Of a DNA stretch of 34,271 nt, positions 2,358 through 34,271 are shown one piece after another. The first letter of the stretch is position 1. Each line of letters opens with the position of its first letter. Location of the stretch: the IMG/VR virus record IMGVR_UViG_3300050045_000012, positions 1 to 34,271 of that record; one strand, given 5' to 3'. Below the pieces are notes generated by a model. That model saw only the letters and a program-made list of their open reading frames with translations, searched no databases and was not told the DNA's origin. This DNA is from a virus. Made by a program: the position numbers and the translations under genes.

Positions 2358-3014
2358 TTATCCTACCATCGCCATGCCAGCGCCTGAACCGCCACCACCA
2401 CCGCCGAAAAGCTTGCTCCATAAGCTACCGCCCCCTTGGCCACCACCACCCATAGCTTGTCCAAAGCCCTGCGAAAAACCTCCCGCAGCGGAGGGGATCG
2501 CCCCCGCGATGCCCGCTCCCAGCTCGTGCCCGAAGGTCGAGTTCTGTGCTTTGAGTAGATTCTCGTCGGCGGTATTGGCCTGCCCGTACATACCTAGCGC
2601 CCCGCTCATATCGTGTCCCATGATCCCGGAGAGTCCAGCAGCGCCTTGCTGTACTTGCTGCATACGCTCGTTGGCGTTAGCTATGCCTAGAGATCCTGCT
2701 AGATTGCTCATCTGCCCAACCCCGGCCTTGTTAGCCCCACCAATGAGCTGGGGTATAGCCGCCAGGTTACCGGTGCGGGCACCGATGTCCATCGCGGACT
2801 GCCGCGCCCCACCAAGTGCTCCAGCCGTGCCCTGACCCTCTTGGGTCATAATCTGAGACAGAGTGCTCGGCCCGAACCCCTGCGGGTTGTACATCTCGTT
2901 CTGAAAGAAAGGCGTTAGTGTGCTCTGGATGCCCTGCGACTGGCCGAATAGCGCATTGGCGTTGGCGTCTGTTTGGCCCCCAATCGCTGATGCTAGTCCC
3001 GCTGCGTTTGGCAT
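2358..3014 (-). CDS. Gly/Ala-rich small virion protein
   Basis: This is a 218-residue protein made mostly of Gly, Ala, Gln, Asn and Met. It ends in a glycine-rich stretch (GGGGQGGG, then LFGGGGGGSG). Several mid-sections (IAGAIPSAAGGF and similar) could form membrane-active helices. AGGAG lies about ten bases before the ATG, supporting the start. It opens the leftmost minus-strand group and has its own promoter-like sequence upstream (TTGACA at 3060-3055, with an imperfect -10 in the 3034-3045 palindrome). Composition and position suggest an internal or pilot-like virion protein. No homologue is recognised with confidence. Confidence 0.7.
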   Translation of the reverse strand: MPNAAGLASAIGGQTDANANALFGQSQGIQSTLTPFFQNEMYNPQGFGPSTLSQIMTQEGQGTAGALGGARQSAMDIGARTGNLAAIPQLIGGANKAGVGQMSNLAGSLGIANANERMQQVQQGAAGLSGIMGHDMSGALGMYGQANTADENLLKAQNSTFGHELGAGIAGAIPSAAGGFSQGFGQAMGGGGQGGGSLWSKLFGGGGGGSGAGMAMVG

Positions 3015-3033
3015 TTGCTATCTCCTAGATAGT

Positions 3034-3045
3034 AAAGTATACTTT
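3034..3045. promoter_or_regulatory. Palindromic bidirectional -10 element between divergent genes
   Basis: A perfect 12-base palindrome (AAAGTATACTTT) sits in the 35-base gap between a minus-strand gene starting at 3014 and a plus-strand gene starting at 3050. On the plus strand, TTGCTA (3015-3020), 17 bases and TATACT (3038-3043) form a good sigma70-type promoter. The ATG follows the -10 by exactly six bases. On the minus strand TTGACA (3060-3055) is a perfect -35, but the best -10 choices lie at imperfect spacing (TACTTT at 15, CTTTAC at 17). The palindrome could also bind a dimeric regulator. Confidence 0.5.
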
Positions 3046-3049
3046 TAGG

Positions 3050-4006
3050 ATGATTGTCAAATCTGTATTGGCAGGGGGAGGCATGCTCAAGCCTCTCCTG
3101 ATTCCCGCCCCCGAATGTCGGGGGTTTGGGTTGTGCAACCCCTCTGTTTTGGTGGATCAGGGTAAGATCTTGGTCAACCTGCGAAACGTCAATTACATTC
3201 TCTATCACTGTGAGAAAGAACAACTCAACAGTTGCTGGGGACCGCTCGCGTACTTGAACCCTGAACACGACCAGCATCTGCGAACACACAACTTCCTGTG
3301 CGAGCTGACACCTAGTCTAGATATTGCCAGTTATAAAAAAATTGACATGGCCCTAGACAAAGACCCCCTGTGGGAGTTCGTGGGACTGGAAGACGCTCGC
3401 CTGGTGAGGTGGGGTGGCCTATATGCGATAGGCGTGCGCCGGGATACGACAACGAACGGGGCGGGACGGATGGAGTTGTCTGAACTAGTCGAGGGGAGAG
3501 AAGTAAGCAGATACCGTATCGAACCTCCCTCACCTTCCTATTGCGAAAAGAATTGGATGCCAGTGCTCGACCGGCCTTTTCATTTTGTGAAGTGGGTGAA
3601 CCCCACGGAGGTTGTAGTAGTTGATATAAAAACACTGCGGGCTACTCAGTTAAGGCCAGTGGACGAAGACAGCACAATCAAGGGACTGCCAGATTTGCGT
3701 GGCGGGTCGCAGCTCATCCCGTGGCGGGAGTACTATATTTGCATCGTGCATGATGTGAATCTGTTTAACAATCCACTAGGCCAAAAGAACGGCGTGTACC
3801 GGCACAGGTTCGTGGTGTTCGACAGGGATCTTAAGTTAGTTAAGATTGGAGAACAGTTCTCGTTCATGGGAGCCCGCATAGAGTTCTGCTGTGGACTAGC
3901 GGAATGGAGAAAAGACCTTCTCGTCACATTTGCGTTTCAGGACAATTGTGGGTTTATACTGAGTATTCCGGAGGCAATGATTGAGCAAATTGTTGGAGTT
4001 CGTTAA
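3050..4006 (+). CDS. GH130-like five-bladed beta-propeller protein (sugar-active)
   Basis: This 318-residue protein carries motifs of the GH130/GH43-like propeller superfamily in order: NPSV (30-33), RNVNY (45-49), EDAR (114-117), EKNWMP (166-171), GGSQ (218-221) and an EFCCGLA block near 275. GH130 enzymes are phosphorylases or hydrolases on mannosides, and similar proteins occur in viral and bacterial glycan loci. The substrate here cannot be told. The ATG at 3050 follows TATACT by six bases with no spaced Shine-Dalgarno, suggesting a leaderless start. An internal ATG at 3083 has GGGGGAGG only one base away, too close to be convincing. It overlaps the next gene by 26 bases. It runs opposite to the flanking structural genes, like a moron. 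Confidence 0.75.
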   Translation: MIVKSVLAGGGMLKPLLIPAPECRGFGLCNPSVLVDQGKILVNLRNVNYILYHCEKEQLNSCWGPLAYLNPEHDQHLRTHNFLCELTPSLDIASYKKIDMALDKDPLWEFVGLEDARLVRWGGLYAIGVRRDTTTNGAGRMELSELVEGREVSRYRIEPPSPSYCEKNWMPVLDRPFHFVKWVNPTEVVVVDIKTLRATQLRPVDEDSTIKGLPDLRGGSQLIPWREYYICIVHDVNLFNNPLGQKNGVYRHRFVVFDRDLKLVKIGEQFSFMGARIEFCCGLAEWRKDLLVTFAFQDNCGFILSIPEAMIEQIVGVR

Positions 4007-4520
4007 CGACAACGAGAATCCGCAGCGTAGTTTTGAGCTGGGCCTGTGGTACGAGAGCCTGGGACATGTGGCTGCAGCGGCGGGGCTGTATCTTCGGGCA
4101 GCGGAGAACTCTACTGGAGTGTTGTCCTACGAGGCATTGCTTCGGATGGCAAATTGTTTCGTAATACAGGGAGATTTGCTGCACGTCATAAAAGGCGTAC
4201 TGCTCCGGGCCATCTCTCTGTGCCCGTCTAGGCCAGAGGCGTATTTTTTATTGAGCAGAGTGTACGAGAGAAACAAAGAATGGCACGAGGCCTACACCTT
4301 CGCTGTTATGGGCCAGAGGTTCGACGTCGGCCTTCCCCTACAGACTTATGTAGACTACCCGGGGGAGTATGCACTGGTGTTTCAGCAGGCGGTGGCCGCT
4401 TGGTGGATTGGTCTGTTCGAGGAGTCTATCTCTTTGCTTAAAAAACTAGATAACTGCAAGAAGATATCCCCAGTGTACGCTATAGCGGTTAGCAGTAATT
4501 TGTATAGGCTTACCCACTGA
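3981..4520 (+). CDS. TPR-like helical repeat protein
   Basis: The product is 179 residues made of paired helices with TPR-type spacing (LGLWYESLGHVAAAAGLYLRAA, then a YEALLRMANCFVIQGDL block and a PEAYFLLSRVYERNKEWHEA block). The start is TTG at 3981 with GGAGG six bases upstream. The nearby ATG at 3977 belongs to the frame of the upstream gene. It overlaps the end of the GH130-like gene by 26 bases, so the two are likely translated together. TPR proteins often accompany glycosyltransferases or sugar-active enzymes as scaffolds, so a partner role is inferred. The 3' end overlaps the oppositely oriented fibre gene by 11 bases. Confidence 0.7.
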   Translation: MSKLLEFVNDNENPQRSFELGLWYESLGHVAAAAGLYLRAAENSTGVLSYEALLRMANCFVIQGDLLHVIKGVLLRAISLCPSRPEAYFLLSRVYERNKEWHEAYTFAVMGQRFDVGLPLQTYVDYPGEYALVFQQAVAAWWIGLFEESISLLKKLDNCKKISPVYAIAVSSNLYRLTH

Positions 4521-5679
4521 TCCACACCCCGGGACAAGTAGAGTTGGTATTCATCACACTTATCGCTGGCAGTGTGGCGGGAAGAACTCCCGCTGTGCCT
4601 GCTGAGGTTTTAAGCCCCACTTGTAATAGGGACTGGCCCGGGGGGCTATTCATTATGGCGGCGGCGGCATTGGCGGTGGTGAGGGAGGGGGCCAGTCCAC
4701 CCATAGCCATAGCGTTGGCAGTAGAAGCGCAAATGGCTAAGTAATACCACCCAGGGAGCAGGGTTATGCTAGCCGCAGATGCGTAAGCCGAGCCGTTCCA
4801 TGTGTACAATCCGACTGTTTGAGTTGTGGCGCTGTTTCCATTAATTCCCCCATGGGTGCCGAGGACAATAGTGCTCCCGGCTGTCATAGGATATAGGCCA
4901 AAATCGATGACCATCGCTGAGCCTAGGGCCGTCGTAACTGTACATGTCAAGTTCTTGACGGTAATTGGCTCGGCGAGATAGAACCCCCAGAAGCAGGCCC
5001 CATTAGCCGCAAAGTTTCCCGGGACTGCTCCCGTTAAGCCCGTAGGCAGGACTCCAACAATCCCGCAACCTGCCCAGAAGCCTTGCCCCGGGTTGGGGGC
5101 AAGGCCGGGAAGAAACGTCAACCCCTGAATCCCCTGAATCCCCTGAATCCCCTGAATCCCCTGAATCCCCTGAATCCCCCGAGTCCCTACCCTGCCCTGA
5201 ATCCCCCGAGTCCCCTGAGCCCCTTGTGTGCCCTGAGTACCTGTTGCTCCCTGAATTCCCTGAGCCCCTTGAACGCTGGAGGCGGTGCCTTGTGTGCCTT
5301 GAGTTCCCTGAGCCCCTTGTGTGCCAGCGATACCCTGAGCCCCTTGTGTGCCCTGAGCCCCAGCGATACCTTGAGTACCTGTTGCTCCCTGAGCCCCAGC
5401 AGCTCCCTGAGCCCCAGCAGCTCCTTGAGACCCTTGTGTGCCAGTGATGCCCTGAGTACCTGTTGCTCCCTGAGCCCCTTGTGTGCCCTGAGTACCTGTT
5501 GCTCCCTGAATTCCCTGAGTACCTGTTGCTCCCTGAGGTCCGGAAGCACTCTGGAGAATGATGGTGTTGAACGGATTGGCCGATGTCCCGAGAGTTTGCA
5601 GCCCATCGGTGATCTTAACTGGCCAGCCGTTGGGTTCAGTGTTGGGGGTGCCTTGGTTGATTGTTTCGAGAAACGCCAT
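4510..5679 (-). CDS. Collagen-like tail fibre protein A
   Basis: This is a 389-residue fibre. A short head (residues 1-46, MAFLETINQG...) is followed by a collagen-like Gly-X-Y region (about 47-186) rich in GTQ, GAQ, GAT and GIQ triplets, with a brief break near TASSV (132-136). A C-terminal beta-rich domain (190-389) begins at [12 protein letters not shown]. Collagen-like stretches trimerise in many phage fibres, and the C-terminal domain would be the tip or receptor-binding part. It is a close paralogue of the next gene upstream (5682-6839): head and C-terminal domains match strongly while the repeats differ. Near 5120-5177 a nine-base unit (CCCTGAATC, plus-strand reading) repeats, so slippage could change length without breaking the frame. 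Confidence 0.85.
   Translation of the reverse strand: MAFLETINQGTPNTEPNGWPVKITDGLQTLGTSANPFNTIILQSASGPQGATGTQGIQGATGTQGTQGAQGATGTQGITGTQGSQGAAGAQGAAGAQGATGTQGIAGAQGTQGAQGIAGTQGAQGTQGTQGTASSVQGAQGIQGATGTQGTQGAQGTRGIQGRVGTRGIQGIQGIQGIQGIQGIQGLTFLPGLAPNPGQGFWAGCGIVGVLPTGLTGAVPGNFAANGACFWGFYLAEPITVKNLTCTVTTALGSAMVIDFGLYPMTAGSTIVLGTHGGINGNSATTQTVGLYTWNGSAYASAASITLLPGWYYLAICASTANAMAMGGLAPSLTTANAAAAIMNSPPGQSLLQVGLKTSAGTAGVLPATLPAISVMNTNSTCPGVWISG
5120..5177. repeat. Nine-base tandem repeats coding GIQ triplets
   Basis: About six near-perfect copies of a nine-base unit (CCCTGAATC on the plus strand) encode consecutive Gly-Ile-Gln triplets at the end of the collagen-like region of fibre A. A change in copy number would keep the reading frame. 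Wider nine-base periodicity covers the whole collagen-like part of both fibre genes (about 5120-5545 and 6290-6720). Confidence 0.8.
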
Positions 5680-5681
5680 AT

Positions 5682-6839
5682 TTATCCACTAATCCAAACT
5701 GCCGGGCAACTACCGTCGGTAGTCATCGCGGATAGAGTCGGCAGTGTAGCAGGAAGAACCCCGGCGGTGCAGGCGGAGGCGGCTAAACCCACCTGTATGG
5801 GGTTCTGGCTTCCTGTACTATTCATCACAGCATTGGCAAGGTTAGCCGCAGCCAATGCCCCTATGGCAGCGAGAGTGACGGTCGCGTTAGTAGCAGAAGC
5901 CCCAAGGGCTAAGTAATACCATCCCGCCGTCAAAGTTATGCTAGCCGCAGATACGTAAGCCGAGCCGCTCCATGTGTACAATCCGACTGTTTGAGTTGTG
6001 GCGCTGTTTCCATTAATTCCCCCATTGGTGCCGAGGACAATAGTGCTCCCGGCTGTCATAGGATATAGGCCAAAATCGACGACCATCGCTGAGCCTTTGG
6101 CCACCGTAACTGTACATGTCAAGTTCTTGACGGTAATTGGCTCGGCGAGATAGAACCCCCAGAAGCATGCCCCATTAGCCGCAAAGTTTCCAGGAATAGC
6201 GGCGGCCACACCACCAGGTACGATCCCAAAAACTCCACAACCTGCCCAGAATCCTTGCCCCGGGTTGGGAGTAAGGGTAGGTAGAACTGCCAACCCCTGA
6301 GTCCCCTGAACGCCCTGAGTCCCCTGAACGCCCTGAGTCCCTGTGGTCCCCTGAGTCCCCTGAACGCCCTGAGTCCCCTGAACGCCCTGAGTCCCCTGAG
6401 TCCCTGTGGTCCCCTGAGTCCCTGTGGTCCCCTGAGTCCCTGTGGTCCCCTGACTTCCTGTGGTCCCTTGAATCCCTGTAGTCCCCTGAATACCTGTGGT
6501 CCCCTGAGGCCCTGTAGTGCCTTGACTAGTTGCCCCCTGACTTCCTGTGGGTCCTTGAATACCTGTGGTCCCCTGAGGCCCGGTTCCCGTCGATCCCTGA
6601 ATCCCTGTGGTCCCCTGAATACCTGTGGTCCCCTGAGGCCCTGTAGTGCCTTGACCCGTCGCCCCCGTTGTTCCCTGAGTCCCAGTGGCTCCCTGAGGCC
6701 CAGCTATACCTTGGGCACCTGTGGTGTAGAAAGGGTTTTGTAATGTCCCGAGCGTCTGCAGCCCGTCGGTGACTTTTATAGGCCAGCCGTTGGCTTCAGT
6801 GTTCGGATTGCCTTGGTTCATTGTTTCAAGAAACGACAC
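5682..6839 (-). CDS. Collagen-like tail fibre protein B
   Basis: This 385-residue paralogue of fibre A has a head (1-40, [10 protein letters not shown]...), a Gly-X-Y region (about 41-182) and a C-terminal beta-rich domain from [12 protein letters not shown]. The repeats are richer in threonine (GTT, GTQ, GVQ) than in fibre A and contain short breaks (TGQGTTG near 61, ATSQG near 103). The start is GTG at 6839, whose G is also the last base of the upstream TAG stop, so translation is coupled. The long identical blocks in the C-terminal half point to a recent tandem duplication. The last part of the C-terminal domain differs ([12 protein letters not shown] versus ANAAAAIMNSPPG). Confidence 0.85.
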
Positions 6840-12845: not shown

Positions 12846-12859
12846 ACAACTAAAGTATC
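12846..12859 (-). promoter_or_regulatory. Extended -10 promoter giving a leaderless start (adaptor gene)
   Basis: On the minus strand TGATACTTT is followed by six bases and the ATG of the adaptor gene. TACTTT fits the TANNNT -10 pattern and the upstream TG makes it an extended -10. No good -35 is present at 16-18 bases. The TAG inside the motif is the stop codon of the upstream zinc-ribbon gene. No Shine-Dalgarno lies before the ATG. Confidence 0.5.
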
Positions 12860-16754: not shown

Positions 16755-17579
16755 TTAAGCCGCTTCAGGCTCATTACTAAAGTATCTTTGCAGGGACTCC
16801 TGCCACGTAGGTACGACCAGACTGGGCTTTAACACCCCGTTTAATGGGTATTTGCATCCCCGAGGAGAAAACACCCCAGATATTGGGTTCTTTAGCCCCT
16901 CGAGATTCAAAATCTCCCGGGCGATTTCATAGAACGAGGCGCTATTGCTGGACCCGAGGTGAACGATTGGGTAATCCTTTTCCGTAAGTATTGACCAATA
17001 TAAGCACTCCACTACATCGAGCGTAAACAAGGGATTCACCATCTGGTCAAGGGGAAAAGTCATGGCTTTATTCTCCGCAGCCAGCCGCCTAACGGTGGAC
17101 ACGAAATTACGTCCCTTGCCCCGGTTCGGGGCGTGGCCATAGATTGGAGGCAATCGAATAATCGTGGCCGATAGACCGTGGGCTATCTCTTCGAGGATGG
17201 CACACTCACCTAGCCACTTAGAGTAGCCATACACGGTCTTCGGGTCGCATTGGTCTACTGTAGCGTAGGGGGTAGCTAGCTGGCCATTGAATACCATGTT
17301 GGTCGATATGTGAAGCAGCCGGATGTCCAGCTTTCGACACACATGGGCCAAGTTCCGGGGACCGAGGTAATTCGTCTCGAACGCCCGGTTGGGATTGTGC
17401 TCGCACTTGTCCACGTCGTGGTAGGCCGCACAGTTTATCACCACATCAAATCCATCTAGTACCGGCGCGGTGACGTTTTCTACAGAAATGACCTTGTGTG
17501 GGATGGATACAGCCGTGTGCCAGATTTTACATAGTTCCGTACCGAGCATCCCCTCGCCACCGAAGATTGCAATTTTCAT
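16755..17579 (-). CDS. RmlD-like NAD(P)-dependent sugar reductase (SDR family)
   Basis: This is a 274-residue extended SDR. It has a Rossmann motif GGEGMLG (7-13), the NCAAYHDVDKCE block (49-60) typical of dTDP-4-dehydrorhamnose reductases, ISTNMVFNG (91-99, usually STDYVFDG), and a catalytic YGYSK (Y117, K121). RmlD reduces dTDP-4-keto-L-rhamnose to dTDP-L-rhamnose. Here the product could be another deoxy sugar. I chose the ATG at 17579, which overlaps the upstream epimerase stop as ATGA. With that gene it forms a coupled pair transcribed from the promoter at 18522-18550. The asparagine in STNMVF, where the family has aspartate, is a small departure. Confidence 0.85.
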   Translation of the reverse strand: MKIAIFGGEGMLGTELCKIWHTAVSIPHKVISVENVTAPVLDGFDVVINCAAYHDVDKCEHNPNRAFETNYLGPRNLAHVCRKLDIRLLHISTNMVFNGQLATPYATVDQCDPKTVYGYSKWLGECAILEEIAHGLSATIIRLPPIYGHAPNRGKGRNFVSTVRRLAAENKAMTFPLDQMVNPLFTLDVVECLYWSILTEKDYPIVHLGSSNSASFYEIAREILNLEGLKNPISGVFSPRGCKYPLNGVLKPSLVVPTWQESLQRYFSNEPEAA

Positions 17580-18502
17580 AGCATCATCCTGATGTTGTAA
17601 AAACAATCCTGTTCATACCAATCCTTCGGGCGGTTGCCACAGGTGACTTGCAGTTCCCTAATGATCTCATATACACCGTCCTGCGGCTGATAGCCTATAT
17701 CCAAGTACGCCTTGCGACCGTCCATCCGGTAGTTCCGCATCTCGGGCTCTTCTTCGATGACCACTTTGCACTCCATTGCGCAGGCTACAGAGAGACCTAT
17801 ATAAGCCATGTCGTGATTCTCAGAGAGGATGTTGAACACCCCGCTGTGGGGCGTTGGGGCCTCAACTGCCGCAGCATACGCTCGTACTGCATCTGTCATG
17901 GCAAGAATAGGCCGCCAGATCTTCCCGTTGTGAACGGTCACTACGCCCGTAGTTACCGCATCCTTGAACATAGCATTGATGGCCAGATCGAAGCGCATCC
18001 GGGGGCTCCAGCCGGAGATCGTGCCTTTACGAAGTGCAATTACTTGGAAAGAACTATCGACTAATTGTAACACAGCGTTCTCGGCGGCCAGCTTGGACAG
18101 GCCATACGGATATGCCGGATGGACTAGTGCCGCCTCGTCCATTAGTAATGGACTCTGCCCATACACGGACGCGCTGCTGGCGAAGATGAACCGGGGCACC
18201 CCAGCTTGCTTGGCGATATACGCGAGGTAGGCCGGGGCGGCGGTATTCTGGATGTAGTTCTTCGCTGGGGAGTAGTTGGCCATCGGGTCGTTGGACAGGC
18301 CAGCCAAGAAGATTACCCGGTCGTAGCCCTCCAGATCCCCGATCTTCAGGGAGAACAGATCTTTATCATAGCAGGGGTAATCGGGGGAGGGGTTACCCAG
18401 ACGCTTGTCATCTACAGCGAAGACATCGTGCCCCTTAGAGATTAAGTAGGGGCAAACCCTCTGCCCCACGTATCCAGCGCCGCCAACAACTAAGATTTCC
18501 AA
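17576..18502 (-). CDS. NAD-dependent epimerase/dehydratase (extended SDR)
   Basis: The 308-residue protein has GGAGYVG (7-13), AGLSNDP (67-73), SSASVYG (109-115) and catalytic YGLSK (Y133, K137). It belongs to the nucleotide-sugar epimerase/dehydratase family (GalE/RmlB/WcaG-like). The exact reaction cannot be told. The start is TTG at 18502, set by a strong AGGAGG eight bases upstream. That ribosome site lies in the 3' arm of the hairpin following the capsid gene, and a full promoter overlaps the same hairpin. It is coupled to the RmlD-like gene by ATGA. The two proteins plausibly act in sequence on a nucleotide sugar. Confidence 0.85.
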   Translation of the reverse strand: MEILVVGGAGYVGQRVCPYLISKGHDVFAVDDKRLGNPSPDYPCYDKDLFSLKIGDLEGYDRVIFLAGLSNDPMANYSPAKNYIQNTAAPAYLAYIAKQAGVPRFIFASSASVYGQSPLLMDEAALVHPAYPYGLSKLAAENAVLQLVDSSFQVIALRKGTISGWSPRMRFDLAINAMFKDAVTTGVVTVHNGKIWRPILAMTDAVRAYAAAVEAPTPHSGVFNILSENHDMAYIGLSVACAMECKVVIEEEPEMRNYRMDGRKAYLDIGYQPQDGVYEIIRELQVTCGNRPKDWYEQDCFYNIRMML

Positions 18503-18507
18503 AAAGA

Positions 18508-18540
18508 AAACCTCCTGCGATAAAGTATCGCAGGAGGTTT
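18508..18540 (-). terminator. Strong hairpin terminator after capsid gene, hiding the next gene's RBS
   Basis: A perfect inverted repeat has arms 18511-18522 and 18526-18537 (CCTCCTGCGATA / TATCGCAGGAGG) around a three-base loop, extended by three A-T pairs. On the minus strand it is followed by TTTTCTTTTT, a typical intrinsic terminator, 18 bases after the capsid stop. The 3' arm contains the AGGAGG that serves the epimerase at 18502. Read-through RNA from the capsid gene would therefore keep that site paired. Confidence 0.85.
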
Positions 18541-18550
18541 AGTTTGTCAA
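18522..18550 (-). promoter_or_regulatory. Promoter embedded in the capsid terminator
   Basis: On the minus strand TTGACA (18550-18545), a 17-base spacer and TACTTT (18527-18522) form a near-consensus sigma70-type promoter. Its -10 box lies on the loop and inner stem of the terminator hairpin. Initiation would fall near 18515, after the 5' arm, so the new RNA would lack that arm and leave AGGAGG free for the epimerase start. Confidence 0.7.
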
Positions 18551-18557
18551 GCTGAAA

Positions 18558-19943
18558 CTAGTTGCTCCATCCGAGCGGCAGAGCCAACGTGTCGATGTAG
18601 GCACCGGCGCGGGGCTTGCTGTTCGCAATCTGGCCACCGAAGACGAAGTAGAAGGCAGTCGTGGGGGCCACGCCACCGTCAGATCCGTACAACGGGAAGG
18701 TCGTCATTCCGCCCACATCGAAGAGCGAGGGCGGCTTGACTTCCGTCTTGAACCAGTACTTGAAGTTGATGGCATCAACGCGCTGTTGACGCGCCTTGAT
18801 GTTGACAATCAGCTCATGGCCAGCCATTGTTTTGACGCGGCCCTTGGGCAGATAGTCTTTGCGGACGCTCTTGCTGTCGTCCGCGCTGTTTCCTTCCACG
18901 AACTCCGTCGCGCTCATGGCGAAGGTTCCGCCCAAGCTGGAGGAGCTATACAGGCCCAAGTTCTCCCAAGCGGTTACTTGGTCGGTGTTGGCCTGGATCA
19001 CGAAGTCTGTCAGCTCGTCGCAGTCAGATCCGTTCGCGCGCTGCAGGAGCGATTCCATCAACTGGAACTGCTGAGGAACGAGGGCATCGCTGCCGCCGTT
19101 GATGTATACGCTGTTCAGAACTCCCGGCCAGGTGCTGCGGGGAATGCCGAACCAGTCGCCACTCGAAGATTGGTAGTTAATCGCCGGAACACCGTTCAGT
19201 GAAGCCGAAACGGTGGCAGACGTGTACCGATCTGGGATGTAGGTCTGGCTGATGGACAGAGTGGTAATCGCGGCAGAGCCGGAAACTACCAGAATGTCGG
19301 TCGCCTCGGTCCCGGCGGGCCAGTAGCTGGTGCTGTTGGGCTCCGCGAGGTAGAGGATGTTGTTGATGAGGTCGCAAGTCAGAACCAGAATGGATCCGCG
19401 AGCGGTCGCATAACCAGCGCTCATCACTTCGTAGTTGCAGCCAGCCTGGAAGTCGTTGGCGTTCGAGACTTGCAGGTAGTTCTGGTTGGACACCGGCGTA
19501 ACGGTGATCGTTCCGAGCCCGCCTCCGCCATCGGAGACTGCCATCAGGGCTTCCAAGTTGGTACGGAAGGCCTTCAGGTTGATGCGGAAGCTGTCTTTGT
19601 AGACATCGACCACGGACTTTTCTTTGCCGTCGGTCGCCCACTCAGCTCCCTTGGTGACCTGGCAAGCCTGGTTGAAGAACACCGGCGAAGCCACGCCCAC
19701 ATCGTACTGCTCGCCTCCACCGGTTCCCATCGAATCAGTAGTGCCATCCGGCACGAACTGCGCGAAGGTAGAACCCGGCTGGGCCAGGATTGGAATACGG
19801 ACCAAACGGTCAGAGACTTTGTAGTTCTCGAGATTCTGGAGACGGCCATAGAACTTGGCGTCTTGGTTGAACTGCGGATAGACTGAAGCGTTGAGTTTTT
19901 CAATCTCGACGCCAATCGCGGCTGCCTGGTTTAGATCTGCCAT
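18558..19943 (-). CDS. Major capsid protein (probable)
   Basis: The 461-residue protein has the size and arrangement expected of an HK97-fold major capsid protein. A helical N-terminus (ADLNQAAAIGVEIEKLNASV) leads into a basic loop region and a long beta-rich middle, ending with KYWFKTEVKPPSLFDVGG and a strand-rich tail. I chose the ATG at 19943, which has GGAG about nine bases upstream; the open frame begins earlier. A 160-base leader precedes it and a very strong terminator follows, fitting a highly expressed single-gene unit. No signature motif proves the fold, so the call rests on size, composition, neighbourhood (portal upstream) and expression signals. Phage GroEL could assist its folding. 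Confidence 0.7.
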   Translation of the reverse strand: MADLNQAAAIGVEIEKLNASVYPQFNQDAKFYGRLQNLENYKVSDRLVRIPILAQPGSTFAQFVPDGTTDSMGTGGGEQYDVGVASPVFFNQACQVTKGAEWATDGKEKSVVDVYKDSFRINLKAFRTNLEALMAVSDGGGGLGTITVTPVSNQNYLQVSNANDFQAGCNYEVMSAGYATARGSILVLTCDLINNILYLAEPNSTSYWPAGTEATDILVVSGSAAITTLSISQTYIPDRYTSATVSASLNGVPAINYQSSSGDWFGIPRSTWPGVLNSVYINGGSDALVPQQFQLMESLLQRANGSDCDELTDFVIQANTDQVTAWENLGLYSSSSLGGTFAMSATEFVEGNSADDSKSVRKDYLPKGRVKTMAGHELIVNIKARQQRVDAINFKYWFKTEVKPPSLFDVGGMTTFPLYGSDGGVAPTTAFYFVFGGQIANSKPRAGAYIDTLALPLGWSN

Positions 19944-20103
19944 GTTAGAACACTCCAAATGAGATTTTGGCGTTCCCAACTCCACCTAGGACAGACGGTT
20001 TCAGCACGAAGCTACGGGTTTCCGGTTCCGGGGCCTATCTTAGAGTTTGTTGCGCTCTATAGATAATAGTATCTAGACCGGGACCCTAAGAGGAGCAGCC
20101 TTC
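19944..20103 (-). promoter_or_regulatory. Leader region upstream of the capsid gene
   Basis: This 160-base non-coding stretch lies between the beta-rich gene at 20104 and the capsid start. On the minus strand TACTAT (20071-20066) inside an AT-rich patch is the best -10 candidate. It resembles the recurrent ATACTTTA motif, but no convincing -35 accompanies it. Below it the leader is GC-rich and could fold (CCGGAACCGGAAACC region near 20025). A promoter is expected here because of the strong terminator downstream, but the evidence is weak. Confidence 0.3.
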
Positions 20104-20670: not shown

Positions 20671-21101
20671 TATGGCATCTCCACAAGTGAAGCACTGAGA
20701 GAGTATGCAGGGTCGTATGCACCGCCGTATGCTGTCGTCAACGTAATAGCCGTCGCTGCTTGAGCCAACAGAGGGTACGTTTCCATCACGACTTGTGCTA
20801 CAGAGAGTGATAGAACTAATGTAATCGTCTGAAGTCCAGAACCATCTGCAGCGGTATAAGTCAATGTCGCCGTCAATGTCTGCCCTGAAGTTCCAAGCCC
20901 TTTACTTGCCATGTAAATAGAAACAGTATACATCTGGGTCCCAGCAGCGGTAATGGTTATCGTCTGTGAACTGGTGGTGTTGATAAACTGCTCAGAAACC
21001 AGAATGACTGGTGCGACTTCTTGGAGTGTGCCAATCGCTTGCTCTAACGCTGTTAGAGCCTCCAACGGGTCGAGCCTTGAGAAATCAATGTCAATGAGCA
21101 T
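20670..21101 (-). CDS. Beta-rich protein, possible capsid decoration or attachment partner
   Basis: The 143-residue protein has a helical start (DFSRLDPLEALTALEQAIGTLQEV, residues 6-30). It is then almost entirely beta strands rich in Thr, Ala and Ser (SSQTITITAAGTQMYTVSIYMASKG). No family is recognised. The ATG at 21101 has no Shine-Dalgarno and follows TACTTT by exactly six bases, suggesting leaderless translation. The stop is coupled to the next gene as TAATG. The N-terminal helix could trimerise or anchor the protein while the beta domain is exposed. Confidence 0.6.
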   Translation of the reverse strand: MLIDIDFSRLDPLEALTALEQAIGTLQEVAPVILVSEQFINTTSSQTITITAAGTQMYTVSIYMASKGLGTSGQTLTATLTYTAADGSGLQTITLVLSLSVAQVVMETYPLLAQAATAITLTTAYGGAYDPAYSLSASLVEMP

Positions 21102-21115
21102 ACTACTAAAGTATC
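21102..21115 (-). promoter_or_regulatory. Extended -10 promoter giving a leaderless start (143-residue gene)
   Basis: On the minus strand TGATACTTT is followed by AGTAGT and the ATG at 21101. It is the same arrangement and nearly the same sequence as before the adaptor gene. The motif again supplies the end of the upstream gene (ATA CTT TAG codes Ile, Leu, stop). There is no -35-like hexamer at normal spacing and no Shine-Dalgarno. Confidence 0.5.
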
Positions 21116-21570
21116 AGAGGAGCAGCCCTCCGGTCCTTCTCGGACAGTATAGGCCACTTAATCGGCCACTTAATCCCAACGCTATCCCACCGGACTGCTC
21201 CCTCGGTCTTCGGGTCGAAGAACGCTGAGCACTTGTACTGAATCTCGGTGTTGTCGGTTAAGGCGCAGAACCCGCGAGCCCAGTGATCCGGAGCCCATAT
21301 CTGAAGGCCGTCCCGGTCACTTACAGTAGCCGTGAATGTCTCGCCCGTCCTGAGATTAACGGCGGCCAAGAAAGCCACGCCCCAGGTTACACGCATCAGC
21401 TTGCTCATGCCTGGCTGGTAGTGCATACCTCGGATGACGTTCTTGCGCGAGCAAGAATGATTGTCTTGGACGAATACAGGCAGTCTCCTGTAATCGGCCC
21501 TATATGTCTCGCTGAACCAACCCCGGTTGTCGGAGAATCGAGGGGGCTTCAGCAGAATGATCTCACTCAC
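21106..21570 (-). CDS. RmlC-like cupin sugar epimerase, shortened
   Basis: This 154-residue protein matches dTDP-4-dehydrorhamnose 3,5-epimerase: DNRGWFSE (14-21), FVQDNHSCS (33-41), RGMHYQ (47-52, with the catalytic-type His50), KLMRVTWG (57-64) and LSEKD near the end. RmlC proteins usually have about 180 residues. Two active-site positions look changed. The family's AHGF is ARGF (Arg99), and the tyrosine expected in the CSAxYxP region appears as Phe118 (CSAFFDP). Either full epimerase activity is lost or the enzyme does a related reaction. I chose GTG at 21570, which overlaps the phosphatase stop by eight bases. It probably works with the RmlD-like and SDR enzymes. Confidence 0.8.
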   Translation of the reverse strand: MSEIILLKPPRFSDNRGWFSETYRADYRRLPVFVQDNHSCSRKNVIRGMHYQPGMSKLMRVTWGVAFLAAVNLRTGETFTATVSDRDGLQIWAPDHWARGFCALTDNTEIQYKCSAFFDPKTEGAVRWDSVGIKWPIKWPILSEKDRRAAPLIL

Positions 21571-22141
21571 CGGGCTCTTCTTCTCCCAATAGAATCTCGT
21601 ATCTCCAGCCGTCTTTGTCCGGGTAAATAGCGATAATGCCGCCGGGGGAGATACAGGTGTCGTGTTTCTGCGTACCGTCCAACAGGTCGCAGAGGGCAAT
21701 TAAGTTGGTAGTATGGGCCACGAACAAAGTCACACAGTGCTCGTTGAGCTGATCCTCGAAGAAGTCTCCGGTTCGTTCCATGAACTCGTTGAGGGTTTCT
21801 CCGTTCTTGGGTCGCTTGTCGGGGTTGCGGATGTACTCTTCGAGCGCTTCCTCAAACTCCGCTTTAGGCTTGCCCCAGTACTCGGGGATGCTCCATGGGA
21901 ATAGCTGGTTGTTTTGCTCAATGCAGAGATTAGGGGCGATAATCTCCGCAGTCCTCACAGCGCGGCAGAGAGGAGACGATACTACTCGTTCTATAGATTG
22001 CCGAGAAAGAAACTGGTGGGCCACATCAGCGTCGTTGACGCCTTTTGGGGAAAGGGGCTCGTTGATTAATCCAGTGTAGAGTCCCCGCTCATTGAACTCG
22101 GTGGTTCCGTGGTGGACGACGAAGGCAACGGGTTTAGGCAT
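21563..22141 (-). CDS. Histidine phosphatase superfamily protein
   Basis: The 192-residue protein has the branch-1 histidine phosphatase layout: VHHGTTEFN (9-17), where the family has RHGxTxxN; SSPLCRAVRTAEII (55-68); a GET segment (114-116); and the second histidine in VAHTTN (141-146). The phospho-accepting His11 is kept, but the preceding arginine is replaced by histidine. Members remove phosphate from sugars and other small molecules. Next to an RmlC-like gene, a sugar-phosphate substrate is plausible. It is tightly coupled to the RmlC-like gene and begins three bases after the portal stop. No strong ribosome site is seen. Confidence 0.8.
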   Translation of the reverse strand: MPKPVAFVVHHGTTEFNERGLYTGLINEPLSPKGVNDADVAHQFLSRQSIERVVSSPLCRAVRTAEIIAPNLCIEQNNQLFPWSIPEYWGKPKAEFEEALEEYIRNPDKRPKNGETLNEFMERTGDFFEDQLNEHCVTLFVAHTTNLIALCDLLDGTQKHDTCISPGGIIAIYPDKDGWRYEILLGEEEPGE

Positions 22142-25949: not shown

Positions 25950-26298
25950 TGAGTTTGTTCCTCAGCGCCGTGGGGTTTTGCTCCCTCTGGGCGGCTATTC
26001 TTTTACGTTCCGACCATGAGATATAGCCGGTTTGACTCTCACCTGTTAAAGTATCTGCTTTCTCTGTCGGCTCAATGGATTCCAGCTCTTCTACCCGGGT
26101 CATCAGACGAGCCTCAGACTCCATGAGTTCGTCCCTCATAGTCTTGGCCCGGGCAGCCGAATCCCGCTGCGCAGCAGCTACCTGCTCCACCAGCTCTTCG
26201 AGAAGCTTCTGTAGCTGGAACCTCTGGTCGTGGAGGTTAGTGATTTTTATCTCCAGATCATTTATTCCAAGCTGGCGGCGTAAGAATGTGTAGATCAT
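25849..26298 (-). CDS. Coiled-coil hypothetical protein
   Basis: The 149-residue product has a long heptad-rich helix (about residues 15-80, LEIKITNLHDQRFQLQKLLE and onward through LVEQVAAAQRD). A shorter segment YISWSERKRIAAQREQNP follows. I chose the ATG at 26298, which overlaps the terminase end by 41 bases; the frame is open further upstream inside the terminase gene. GGGGAG precedes the ATG at short spacing. The last 34 codons overlap the next gene. The role is unknown; position after the terminase would allow an assembly or packaging accessory. Confidence 0.6.
   Translation of the reverse strand: MIYTFLRRQLGINDLEIKITNLHDQRFQLQKLLEELVEQVAAAQRDSAARAKTMRDELMESEARLMTRVEELESIEPTEKADTLTGESQTGYISWSERKRIAAQREQNPTALRNKLNGNLPSTGRPAQDDFRRGHDVPSNGEAPSHEGN
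26048..26075 (-). promoter_or_regulatory. Internal promoter-like site within the coiled-coil gene
   Basis: On the minus strand TTGAGC (26075-26070), 16 bases and TACTTT (26053-26048) resemble the other TACTTT elements. It lies in coding sequence, about 100 bases before the gene starting at 25949. If active it would boost the portal-lysozyme operon. It is weaker than the site at 18522-18550. Confidence 0.3.
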
Positions 26299-28235: not shown

Positions 28236-28653
28236 TGTCAACCTCTCCTGGGTTTGCGAAATCCGCCAGCTTCAGCGGTCGTACTACCTCACCGTCAATC
28301 GTGGGGACTTGCTTATTTCTTCCGCCGACATACACAACAGACGGACCAGACTCCGCAGCAATCTCTTTAGCTTCCTTGGCAATCTCGCCTCTACCGATGA
28401 ATTGGTCCAGCACTCTTAGAATCAGCGCTTGCTGCTGCTTGCTGGCCCCAGTAACTCCAAAGGCAATATCCCGGTACATCCCCGCCAGAGCCTCTATCCC
28501 CAACTGCCCCTCGTAGCGACCAGCGGGGACTTTCTCGTAGAAGGCCGCTCGGATCAGGACCGACAAGTCCTCTTTGATCTGCGGTCCCTCCAGCTCTTTC
28601 AGCTTACACTGAAGTTCTCGGAGTTTCAAGCGTTCTCTGATTTCTTTTCTCAC
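28225..28653 (-). CDS. Helical protein, second candidate small terminase or assembly factor
   Basis: This is a 142-residue protein with a basic N-terminus (MRKEIRERLKLRELQCKLKE) and mostly helices through residue 100. It then has a strand-containing end (PSVVYVGGRNKQVPTIDGEVVRPLKL). GTG at 28653 overlaps the GroEL stop as GTGA, so the gene is coupled to the chaperonin. Size, charge and position two genes before the large terminase would suit a small terminase subunit. No DNA-binding motif is obvious, and the assignment is a guess from context. Confidence 0.55.
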   Translation of the reverse strand: MRKEIRERLKLRELQCKLKELEGPQIKEDLSVLIRAAFYEKVPAGRYEGQLGIEALAGMYRDIAFGVTGASKQQQALILRVLDQFIGRGEIAKEAKEIAAESGPSVVYVGGRNKQVPTIDGEVVRPLKLADFANPGEVDNER

Positions 28654-30146
28654 TCGGACACCTGGATCAGAGTATCAGTTGCGAGCATGACGCTAGCGAC
28701 AGACGCGGCGTTCCGTAGCGAAGCCTTTACCACAAGAGCAGGGTCCAAAATACCCGAAGTCAGTAGATCTACTGTAGCCCCCGAAAGCGCGTCCGATCCG
28801 ACGGCGCAGCCAGAGTTTAAAGCTATTCGGTCCGATGGGGCCGATATGCTCTCCTGTACTACTCCGGCGACCCGGATTGCCCGCCGCGAATTGCGCAAGG
28901 CCATCCCAGCTCCGATCACTACTCCGTCTTCCAATGCGGATCTTGTCGCTAGGCACGAATCCTCGCATCTCGCCTTCAGATCCCCCATCTCCAGTCCCGA
29001 GCGGGCGGCGAGTCTCAGTACTGTCAGTCCACCCGTCAGCTTGGCTAACCGCTCGTTGAGTTTCTCCCTCTCTAGGGGTGTAGGGGTCTGTTCTAACAGC
29101 CCCTGTATAGTCTCCACTCTCTTTTGTATCGCCTCCCCGGACCCAGCACCACCCATAATTCGCGTCGTATTGCCAGTGCAAGTCACCTTGGCAGCCCGCC
29201 CCAGATGCCCCGTATTGAGCTTCGATAGCTCCATCCCCAGTTCCTGTAGGCACGCGGTCCCGCCAGTTAATGCCGCCAGGTCCAGCAGTAAATCCTTGCG
29301 GTGGCCCAGGTTGGTTGGTAGTTTTATCGCTACACATGCTAGTCTCCCTTGCATTTTATTCGTTGCGAGCGTTGCCAGAGCCTCGCCGCGCACGTCTTCC
29401 GCTAATATCACCAGCGGCCTTGACTGCGAGGCAATGGCGTTCATCAAGGCCTGTGCTCCCTGAAGAGAAGTCAGAGGCCGGTCCAAAAGCATAAGCACTG
29501 GGTTGTCGAGTTCCACGGTCTGACGGCGTTCGTTGTTGATAAACACCCCGGATATGAATCCAGAGCCAAGGCTCATGCCTTCTATACGTTCAATCGTGGA
29601 CTCGCCACCCAGTGCTTCCTCCACGGTGACGACACCGTGTTTTCCGGCCTGTAGTGTGGCTTGGGATACTAGCTTCCCCAAGTGCTGATCGTTATTGGCC
29701 GAAATAATCGCTACCTGCTCTACTATCTCGTCGGTGCAGGGGATCTTGATACTGTCGATGTACTTACACACTTTTTCAACATCTTCTGAAATCTGCCGCC
29801 GCACTGAAACTATCGTTTCGTGCTGTAGGGCCTTTAGACCATTGTGCAGCAGAGCGTGCGCCAGGACTACCGTAGCCGATGTCCCATCTCCCGCTTCGTG
29901 CAGGGTGCGCTCGGAGGCTTCTTTGACCATCTTGACGCCCGATGCATCCGGGCCTTCGACCATATACTGCCGCGCGATAGTCACACCGTCGCGCGATGAG
30001 CTGGGGTAAGCTGGAAAATCTCTGGCGGGATCGAAGACACAGTTCCTGCCCTGTGGCCCCATGCTCGATCCTACGACTTCGGCCAGGTTCTTCGCTCCCC
30101 GAAGCAGTATGCCCCGGGCTTCGTCTCCAGTAAAGATTTTCTTCAC
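28650..30146 (-). CDS. groEL: Phage-encoded GroEL chaperonin
   Basis: This 498-residue group I chaperonin has the ATP site nearly intact: SSMGPQGRN (27-35), RDGVTIA (52-58, Asp53) and AGDGTSATVVLAHAL (85-99, Asp87). Near the C-terminus ALEDGVVIGAGMAL corresponds to DGVVAGGGVAL, including its aspartate. It is about 50 residues shorter than E. coli GroEL and lacks the Gly-Gly-Met tail. The start is GTG at 30146, overlapping the GroES stop as GTGA. It would fold phage proteins, most likely capsid or tail proteins too large or abundant for the host chaperonin. Phage GroELs are known but uncommon, and a complete pair with GroES is rarer. Confidence 0.93.
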   Translation of the reverse strand: MKKIFTGDEARGILLRGAKNLAEVVGSSMGPQGRNCVFDPARDFPAYPSSSRDGVTIARQYMVEGPDASGVKMVKEASERTLHEAGDGTSATVVLAHALLHNGLKALQHETIVSVRRQISEDVEKVCKYIDSIKIPCTDEIVEQVAIISANNDQHLGKLVSQATLQAGKHGVVTVEEALGGESTIERIEGMSLGSGFISGVFINNERRQTVELDNPVLMLLDRPLTSLQGAQALMNAIASQSRPLVILAEDVRGEALATLATNKMQGRLACVAIKLPTNLGHRKDLLLDLAALTGGTACLQELGMELSKLNTGHLGRAAKVTCTGNTTRIMGGAGSGEAIQKRVETIQGLLEQTPTPLEREKLNERLAKLTGGLTVLRLAARSGLEMGDLKARCEDSCLATRSALEDGVVIGAGMALRNSRRAIRVAGVVQESISAPSDRIALNSGCAVGSDALSGATVDLLTSGILDPALVVKASLRNAASVASVMLATDTLIQVSE

Positions 30147-30534: not shown

Positions 30535-30626
30535 CTTATCGCCCTTATATTACCACTTACCACGAAAACAGCCGCTTATCGCCCTTATATTACCACTTAC
30601 CACGAAAACAGCCGCTTATCGCCCTT
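30535..30626. repeat. 40-base tandem repeat covering a gene end
   Basis: Two identical 40-base copies (30535-30574 and 30575-30614) and a 12-base partial third (30615-30626) abut without spacers. The partial third copy and the first 18 bases of the middle one encode the C-terminus of the gene at 30597-31889 (KGDKRLFSW, stop). The outermost copy repeats the same codons and stop in the untranslated region. This is a recent slippage-type duplication. Confidence 0.95.
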
Positions 30627-31889: not shown

Positions 31890-31924
31890 ACCAGTAACGT
31901 ATCACCCGGGAACGCTTTTTGCAA
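31890..31924 (-). promoter_or_regulatory. Leftward promoter of the structural region, leaderless
   Basis: On the minus strand TTGCAA (31924-31919), a 17-base spacer and TGA-TACGTT (31901-31896) form an extended -10 promoter. The ATG of the helical-protein gene follows the -10 by exactly six bases, so RNA should begin at or next to the start codon. It is the first promoter of the long leftward gene series. Confidence 0.65.
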
Positions 31925-33586: not shown

Positions 33587-34271
33587 ATGACCATGACTAC
33601 ATGTGATCCTCTGGAATTGTGGCCTGTAAGGAGCAAGCGCAAGCTTAAGGTGTCAGCAAGTAATAACAAGGGCGGATTCTTCAACGAATCCGCTAGGCAG
33701 GTCAGAGTACCTACAGGCAATACGCCTTACGAGAGAACTGTGCGGATGCATGAGGCCGCGCATTCTCTCTTTACTAAACGAAAGATTCTCTCTGATGATC
33801 TGATAGGTCAGGGAGTCGAAGATGCAAGAATACACTTGCTCCTGAAGCCTCAGGGCAGTGCGGCAGAAGACGAGAGGATTACTGCTTTGGCGGATCTTAA
33901 TATACCGGCGGGGGCCATTATTCCCAAAGGCCTTGCTGTAGTTATTGTTCTTCGTGCCAGCGGTATGCTAATCAAGTACCCAGAGCACTACGCTCATCAC
34001 AGGGACAAGTTAGTCCGTATGGCTAACCAAGTTAAAGACGGCTTCATTGTCGCTGTGGATGCTGCCATAGAAGCGCTTCGGACAGATGACGACTGGAAAA
34101 AAGCAGAGTCAATAATCCGCAAAGCGCTTACTGAGGAAAAACCAAAAGAGAGGGGCGGGGACAGCAAGCTGGAGGACAGCAAGCCGGAGGACAGCAAGCC
34201 GGAGGACAGCAAGCCGGAGGACAGCAAGCCGGAGGACAGCAAGCCGGAGGACAGCAAGCCGGAGGACAGCA
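33587..34271 (+). CDS. CobT-like protein, N-terminal part, cut by window edge
   Basis: The frame runs off the right end after 228 codons. It has MHEAAHSLF (54-62), an HExxH motif, followed by GVEDARIH (76-83). CobT-like and related VWA proteins show this HE..H...F / EDxRIE order. After residue 190 a DSKPE pentapeptide repeats about seven times, like the acidic linker preceding the VWA domain in CobT. The VWA domain itself would lie beyond the window. Starting one base after the ATPase gene, it is almost certainly its partner. Whether HExxH acts as a peptidase here is unknown. Confidence 0.75.
   Translation, partial: MTMTTCDPLELWPVRSKRKLKVSASNNKGGFFNESARQVRVPTGNTPYERTVRMHEAAHSLFTKRKILSDDLIGQGVEDARIHLLLKPQGSAAEDERITALADLNIPAGAIIPKGLAVVIVLRASGMLIKYPEHYAHHRDKLVRMANQVKDGFIVAVDAAIEALRTDDDWKKAESIIRKALTEEKPKERGGDSKLEDSKPEDSKPEDSKPEDSKPEDSKPEDSKPEDS
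34160..34271 (+). repeat. 15-base tandem repeat coding DSKPE
   Basis: About seven and a half copies of a 15-base unit (GACAGCAAGCCGGAG; the first has CTG for CCG) run to the window edge. They encode an acidic Asp-Ser-Lys-Pro-Glu linker in the CobT-like protein. The copies are nearly identical at DNA level, so copy number may vary and assembly may collapse here. Confidence 0.95.

Follow-up and report, generated by a model that had tools for sequence, protein, structure and literature searches.

A candidate terminator, promoter and hidden ribosome-binding site in one junction between a probable phage capsid gene and a sugar-gene cassette

The 50 bases ahead of two sugar genes in the window, a 34,271-base IMG/VR virus record whose structural genes discussed here lie on the minus strand, probably form one composite junction, in which a terminator and a hidden ribosome-binding site of the T4-lysozyme type are joined with an embedded sigma70-type promoter. 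This composite would have been brought in with, or have evolved for, an inserted sugar-gene cassette. In the model proposed here, RNA polymerase arriving from the upstream capsid gene would make a 15-bp hairpin and halt in the U-tract, at or immediately ahead of the codon that starts the epimerase, and any read-through transcripts, carrying both arms, would have the epimerase Shine–Dalgarno (SD) sequence locked and be barely translated. A sigma70-type RNA polymerase would bind TTGACA-N17-TACTTT in the double-stranded DNA, with the -10 element over the loop, and its RNA, beginning at about 18515 past the 5' arm, could not form the hairpin and would begin with GGAGG, leaving 8 nt to the TTG. With no hairpin possible in this short-leader RNA and the SD of read-through RNA locked, the epimerase and the stop–start-coupled RmlD-like gene would be expressed mainly from their own start. 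The termination and SD-locking steps are drawn from sequence and folding, and the start within the hairpin is the step that we infer.

The junction and its genes

Read on the minus strand from 18550 to 18500, the junction runs TTGACA AACTAAACCTCCTGCGA TACTTT ATCGC AGGAGG TTTTCTTT TTG, and from the capsid stop onward the sequence is TAG TTTCAGC TTGACA AACTAAACCTCCTGCGA TACTTT ATCGCAGGAGGTTTTCTTTTTGGAAATC, with the stop codon 17 nt upstream of the hairpin (Table 1). The order of elements agrees throughout with the class of composite terminator–promoter–RBS junction proposed here, of which the phr-mbpU junction of phage K is the named example and which is defined by an upstream stop, a -35, a 5' arm between the -35 and +1, a -10 over the 5' arm or loop, an SD in the 3' arm, a U-run and a start codon 4–10 nt after the SD. 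An earlier note on this DNA had described a perfect 12-bp hairpin; the pairing is indeed perfect, and the stem really comprises 15 bp (18540–18526 with 18522–18508) around the 3-nt loop CTT (18525–18523). The same note's TTGACA-N17-TACTTT with the -10 covering the loop is present at 18550–18522 (minus strand), and its AGGAGG in the 3' arm does stand 8 nt from a TTG that opens an NAD-epimerase frame. That the TTG at 18502 is the correct start follows from the protein opening with MEILVVGGAGYVG and from the PF01370 alignment beginning at residue 3.

Table 1. Features of the junction, its flanking genes and related promoter-like sites (positions in the window)
Feature	Position	Strand	Basis or remark
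Probable major capsid gene	18558..19943	-	8-member alignment; one member matches phrog_14242
-35 element TTGACA	18545..18550	-	6/6 consensus match
5' arm of terminator hairpin, AAACCTCCTGCGATA	18526..18540	-	sequence and folding
-10 element TACTTT, over hairpin loop	18522..18527	-	17-nt spacer; within recurrent GATACTTTA (18529-18521)
Predicted transcription start, +1 about 18515	18514..18516	-	inferred, 6 nt past the -10 box
3' arm of terminator hairpin, TATCGCAGGAGGTTT	18508..18522	-	sequence and folding
Shine–Dalgarno AGGAGG in 3' arm	18511..18516	-	8 nt upstream of TTG
U-tract TTTTCTTTTT	18501..18510	-	overlaps foot of 3' arm and TTG start (18502-18500)
NAD-dependent epimerase/dehydratase gene, TTG start	17576..18502	-	PF01370 6e-30 from residue 3; phrog_540
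RmlD-like sugar gene	16755..17579	-	PF04321 4e-49; ATG overlaps epimerase stop (ATGA)
TTGACA-N15-TACTTT, second such site	3034..3060	-	SD-led ATG at 3014
TGA-TACTTT, leaderless-type	21108..21113	-	ATG 6 nt on (21101), no SD; sequence
TGA-TACTTT	12852..12857	-	ATG 6 nt on (12845), no SD; start matches homologues
TGA-TACGTT (one-base variant)	31896..31901	-	ATG 6 nt on (31889), no SD; sequence

The upstream gene is probably that of the major capsid protein, on the grounds of synteny (it comes after a terminase gene, a long gene of portal size and an endolysin gene) and of a match of one of eight homologues to the PHROG "major head protein" family phrog_14242 (E 2e-6). Its 461-aa product has no direct family match, no PDB match and no tblastn match among 50,697 phage records, and an AlphaFold model (mean pLDDT 33) gave no support and was discarded. 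A blastn comparison of window positions 17001–20000 with named phages likewise returned no match, as did a scan of viral contigs for the epimerase.

An RmlC-like dTDP-sugar isomerase gene (21106–21699, minus strand) precedes the capsid gene, which is thus flanked on both sides by sugar genes, the epimerase and RmlD-like genes (16755–18502, minus strand) following it. Elsewhere, the window holds a phage GroEL-like chaperonin gene at 28650–30146 (minus strand; phrog_5725, E 7e-99) and, at 4510–6839 (minus strand), two adjacent collagen-repeat genes with a 300-base stretch in common at 92% identity, a tandem duplication of a fibre-like gene. Positions 30535–30614 are an exact 40-bp tandem duplication, and the window end (34144–34271) consists of 15-bp tandem repeats of GGACAGCAAGCCGGA.

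Termination, ribosome-site accessibility and promoter signals

The hairpin is very probably a terminator. As is typical of intrinsic (rho-independent) terminators, a stable G+C-bearing hairpin is directly followed by a U-rich tract; it folds with z = -5.6, a stability reached by 0 of 200 shuffles, and is the best terminator-like site in a 20-kb scan. Among the homologous capsid loci compared with it (seven distinct sequences besides the window's, their proteins 52–79% identical in the alignment), all carry a stable hairpin within about 130 nt of the capsid stop, mostly with a T-run, and the stems are unrelated in sequence; a position that is kept while the sequence is not fits the expectation for a terminator. 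The earlier assignment of the T-rich-tailed hairpin to termination of the capsid gene is therefore well supported by the stem, the U-tract and the terminators at this position in all the homologues examined.

Conservation of the window's own hairpin in these relatives was ruled out, their stems being different and embedding no SD, and in none of the capsid relatives examined does the SD of the next gene lie within the terminator stem. Neither the epimerase nor the RmlC-like protein gave a tblastn match in the relatives searched. As the relatives have neither the hidden ribosome site nor the sugar genes, the element is best assigned to the inserted cassette, and it appears from these comparisons to have arrived with that cassette or to have evolved for it. 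In one relative (L003, 5380–5440), the capsid terminator is directly followed by TGTGCTACAAT, an extended -10 of the leaderless type with an ATG 7 nt on, so that a promoter after the capsid terminator recurs there in a different form.

Folding indicates that the SD costs 15.4 kcal/mol to open in read-through RNA versus 4.4 in RNA from 18514–18516, and its unpaired probability in the former is 0.000. It is thus highly likely that the SD is hidden in read-through RNA, and the proposal that RNA started at the capsid gene would either end here or hide the ribosome site is upheld by this opening cost together with the stem and U-tract. In the short RNA, GAGGUUUUC is predicted to pair with GGAAAUCUU of the coding start at about -7.9 kcal/mol, with the SD unpaired at a probability of about 0.2. 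A start at 18515, as predicted, would fall within AGGAGG and leave GGAGG at the extreme 5' end, which means that initiation would rely on an SD in that position. The RNA of the embedded promoter would accordingly start past the 5' arm, as had been claimed, without leaving the site open as had also been claimed, since 4.4 kcal/mol are still needed; the calculated gap of eleven kcal between the two RNAs is still large. The further claim that the arrangement fully uncouples the sugar genes from the capsid gene is overstated, as termination is leaky and the analysis found no promoter for the capsid gene.

The promoter is the less secure element. TACTTT matches the sigma70 consensus at only 3/6 positions (T1, A2 and T6 retained). 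The offset of its predicted start is that reported for kayvirus promoters, 6 nt after the -10 box (PMC7698491). Given the hairpin, the chance of an exact TTGACA in register with its single TAnnnT is 0.0015. The window has no excess of promoter-like sites (10 versus 12.3 expected), and the junction promoter fails the -10 rule of a simple scan, while a weight matrix places it 11th among the positions of the window (-35 6/6, spacer 17, -10 3/6); given this lack of enrichment and the failed rule, consensus matching by itself proves nothing. What appears to raise the promoter above chance is recurrence, both within the window and in other phages.

Tandem repeats aside, no 9-mer of the window is more over-represented than GATACTTTA (5 copies versus 0.06 expected, Poisson p 5e-9), which occurs on the minus strand only, and of the six copies of ATACTTTA four precede a gene start by no more than 32 nt (p 9e-6; 2e-4 when the hairpin copy is excluded). 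The motif-to-start distance is 27 nt at both 3014 and 18502. The TG-extended copies have no -35 and the two TTGACA copies have no TG, so that start-associated copies bear one or the other and never both, as expected of sigma70 promoters; the copies at 26055 and 16786 sit in coding sequence and have neither. Four relatives, including two at about 76% capsid identity, contain no exact GATACTTTA, and its use as a lineage-wide promoter was thereby ruled out. Taken with the recurrent architecture described below, the recurrent TACTTT element lends moderate support to the embedded promoter that had been proposed, and its activity is considered rather probable. The composite reading as a whole has to be set against the weak -10 (3/6), the lack of conservation in relatives, a predicted +1 that would clip the SD and a short RNA that is calculated to fold weakly over it.

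Three minus-strand genes (at 21101, 12845 and 31889) open with TGATAC(T/G)TTA(G/C)TnGTATG, an extended -10-like box, and judging by sequence these TGA-TAC(T/G)TT starts look like leaderless transcription in this phage. At 3014–3060, a perfect 12-bp palindrome, AAAGTATACTTT, lies between divergent ORFs (3014 minus, 3050 plus), and promoter-like sites overlap there on both strands.

Recurrence in other phages and rival readings

An IMG/VR search for TTGACA-N-ACCTCC-N-GGAGGTTTT returned 20 loci, 14 of them distinct. Of these distinct viral CCTCC/GGAGG terminators, ten are followed by a gene, some of the ten coming from one family, and every one of them has an in-hairpin -10 of at least 4/6 at 17- or 18-nt spacing; the genes that follow such junctions include dUTPase, tail assembly chaperone and HNH homing endonuclease. 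A near-identical TTGACA...CCTCC...GGAGG junction stands ahead of long ORFs at six loci (L029, L032, L036, L037, L039 and L043); the ORF tested, that of L029, is an HNH homing endonuclease, as if the junction were travelling with such genes. When no hairpin was demanded (TTGACA-N17-TATAAT-N5..25-GGAGGTTTT, viral), 84 distinct sites were obtained among the matches listed, in 10 of which the SD pairs, with an energy of -12 kcal/mol or lower, with bases that precede the predicted start, while shuffles of these sites gave 0.44 such pairings expected and a maximum of 2. When no promoter was demanded (AACCTCCT-N-AGGAGGTT-N-ATG), 8 of the 29 stem families with a real ORF had an in-register promoter at p<=0.05, versus 1.5 expected. 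That every SD-in-terminator hairpin hides a promoter is ruled out by the remaining families, about three quarters of the 29 at this threshold, and the SD-in-hairpin class is therefore wider than the composite. At 17 further loci, the SD opening cost drops from 11–18 to 1–6 kcal/mol when the RNA starts at the embedded promoter. In bacterial genomes, where the arrangement is rarer, an in-register -10 was found in 6/17 cases with a downstream start versus 6/60 without one (p 0.02).

Phage Twort was one of the matches of the recurrence search, and in Twort, the kayviruses (K, LM12, JS1 and others) and SEP1 the composite occupies a homologous junction, from phr/PhoH to the next small gene (mbpU), with TTGACA-N17-TAAAAT/TATAAT/TATACT/TATAGT enclosed in a hairpin whose pairing takes in the SD region. 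The stems differ in sequence among Twort, the kayviruses and SEP1, and this retention of architecture while the sequence changes is the best evidence for what would be selection on the composite; in SEP1 the SD pairing is partial, and the more distant relatives PMBT8 and JDF86 do not have the composite. The staphylococcal phage K/Twort junction (NC_005880.2 28048–28084) is like that of the window in its TTGACA-N17, its -10 in the hairpin, its SD in or at the 3' arm, the ATG of the next gene directly after and, in K, a U-run, and unlike it in a consensus -10, a longer loop, a predicted +1 in the loop and other genes. Public annotations give this spot as a terminator (phage K), a promoter (LM12, SEP1) or an RBS (Stab22), each alone, and the literature found on phage K and Twort does not describe it as one element. 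In phage K (NC_005880.2, L393–L395), 7/39 annotated terminators hold the -35 of a sigma70 promoter in the hairpin with a -10 after the U-tract (shuffles 1.5), which suggests that promoter–terminator fusion is general in that phage; this is the form of most promoter–terminator overlaps there, a related but different design from the window's. The phage K terminator at 111908–111962 contains TGTTATATTA, a published late-promoter box.

Three other readings of the window junction have been weighed. It is unlikely that the hairpin does no more than terminate capsid transcription, its purine-rich 3' arm being an SD by coincidence, with no embedded promoter and with the epimerase made at a low level from read-through or a distant promoter: such a reading accords with the generality of capsid terminators among the homologues examined, the weak -10, the unenriched promoter-like sites of the window and the viral SD-in-terminator families (about three quarters) that have no in-register sigma70 promoter, but it leaves the SD wholly buried in read-through RNA by folding and would have to make a coincidence of the exact TTGACA in register (p 0.0015), the recurrence of the TACTTT element in the window and that of the composite elsewhere. 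It is improbable that GATACTTTA is some other signal, a phage-protein binding site or a translation-start motif, lying in the loop by chance. Two copies do lie within genes, the motif is absent from relatives, and the fixed ATG distance in three copies would also be expected of a translation motif; the -12 to -7 spacing to the ATG is nevertheless that of leaderless promoters, and TG and TTGACA exclude one another in the start-associated copies.

The hairpin might also be a read-through attenuator, a conditional switch through which RNA begun at the capsid gene would come to express the sugar genes late, the trigger being an anti-terminator protein, a small RNA, temperature or cleavage of the loop by an RNase. 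Promoterless SD-in-terminator hairpins do recur, and lambda int is a known case of a terminator hairpin trimmed by RNase (reference cited in PMC3890552), but neither arm has an alternative partner in local folds and the hairpin begins 17 nt beyond the capsid stop, which would place it outside the footprint of the terminating ribosome, so that such a switch is very improbable. The same 17 nt make translational coupling from the capsid stop unlikely. The composite junction thus remains the favored reading.

Known systems and meaning of the junction

In T4 gene e (lysozyme) and in I-TevI, segB and Aeh1 mobE, upstream transcripts conceal the RBS, which becomes accessible on RNA whose promoter lies within the hairpin region, and the read-through RNA of gene e is translated about 100-fold less (PMC3014915, PMC2988022). 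The window shares with gene e and I-TevI the SD in the 3' arm and its pairing in upstream-started RNA (by folding); the RNA of its candidate promoter would likewise be without the 5' arm, and its read-through RNA would likewise be poorly translated. It differs in that the T4 promoters are late or middle and give timing, whereas the -35 of the window is of the sigma70 type; in that the T4 hairpins are not described as terminators in reviews, whereas that of the window has an intrinsic-terminator U-tract; and in that its SD and predicted +1 coincide. The window element has no TATAAATA-type box of a T4 late promoter and sigma70-like hexamers instead, which rules it out as a T4 late-promoter element. 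Ordinary terminators directly after the major capsid gene, as in the window, are known from the T7-like LUZ100 (PMC10134795) and T4 gene 23 (PMC1524935); unlike in the window, no embedded promoter or SD is reported for them. Moron cassettes, in which a gene is supplied with a promoter and a terminator of its own (PMC1524935), are similar in being accessory genes absent from relatives, set between conserved structural genes and provided with their own signals. The sugar genes of the window are absent by tblastn from the close relatives searched, stand at a conserved junction and have at the front of the cassette their own promoter and terminator, both predicted; unlike in morons, a single 50-bp element ahead of the cassette combines promoter, terminator and RBS.

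The window junction would therefore work like a T4 hidden RBS but adds a terminator and sigma70-type hexamers, and its interest comes mainly from the recurrence of the design. No paper naming a three-in-one terminator–promoter–RBS element was found, subscription papers and supplements lying outside the search. It is tentatively suggested, at somewhat short of even odds, that many unrelated phages use a convergent, insertable, trifunctional insulator junction of 45–60 bp, a class so far nameless. If this is true, each such gene has its promoter running through the hairpin that terminates the gene before it, and the ribosome site is exposed on no RNA other than that begun within the hairpin, so that the upstream gene would be insulated in both transcription and translation and a cassette could be placed behind a very highly expressed gene without leak. 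The annotation of such sites calls for caution, as promoter, terminator and RBS callers may all be right about the same bases. Phages would then repeatedly have fused a terminator, a promoter and a hidden RBS, keeping an accessory gene behind the strongest gene of the genome without its being driven by it; the T4 hidden-RBS mechanism would be widened from timing to insulation in general, and a compact natural insulator for genetic engineering would be suggested.
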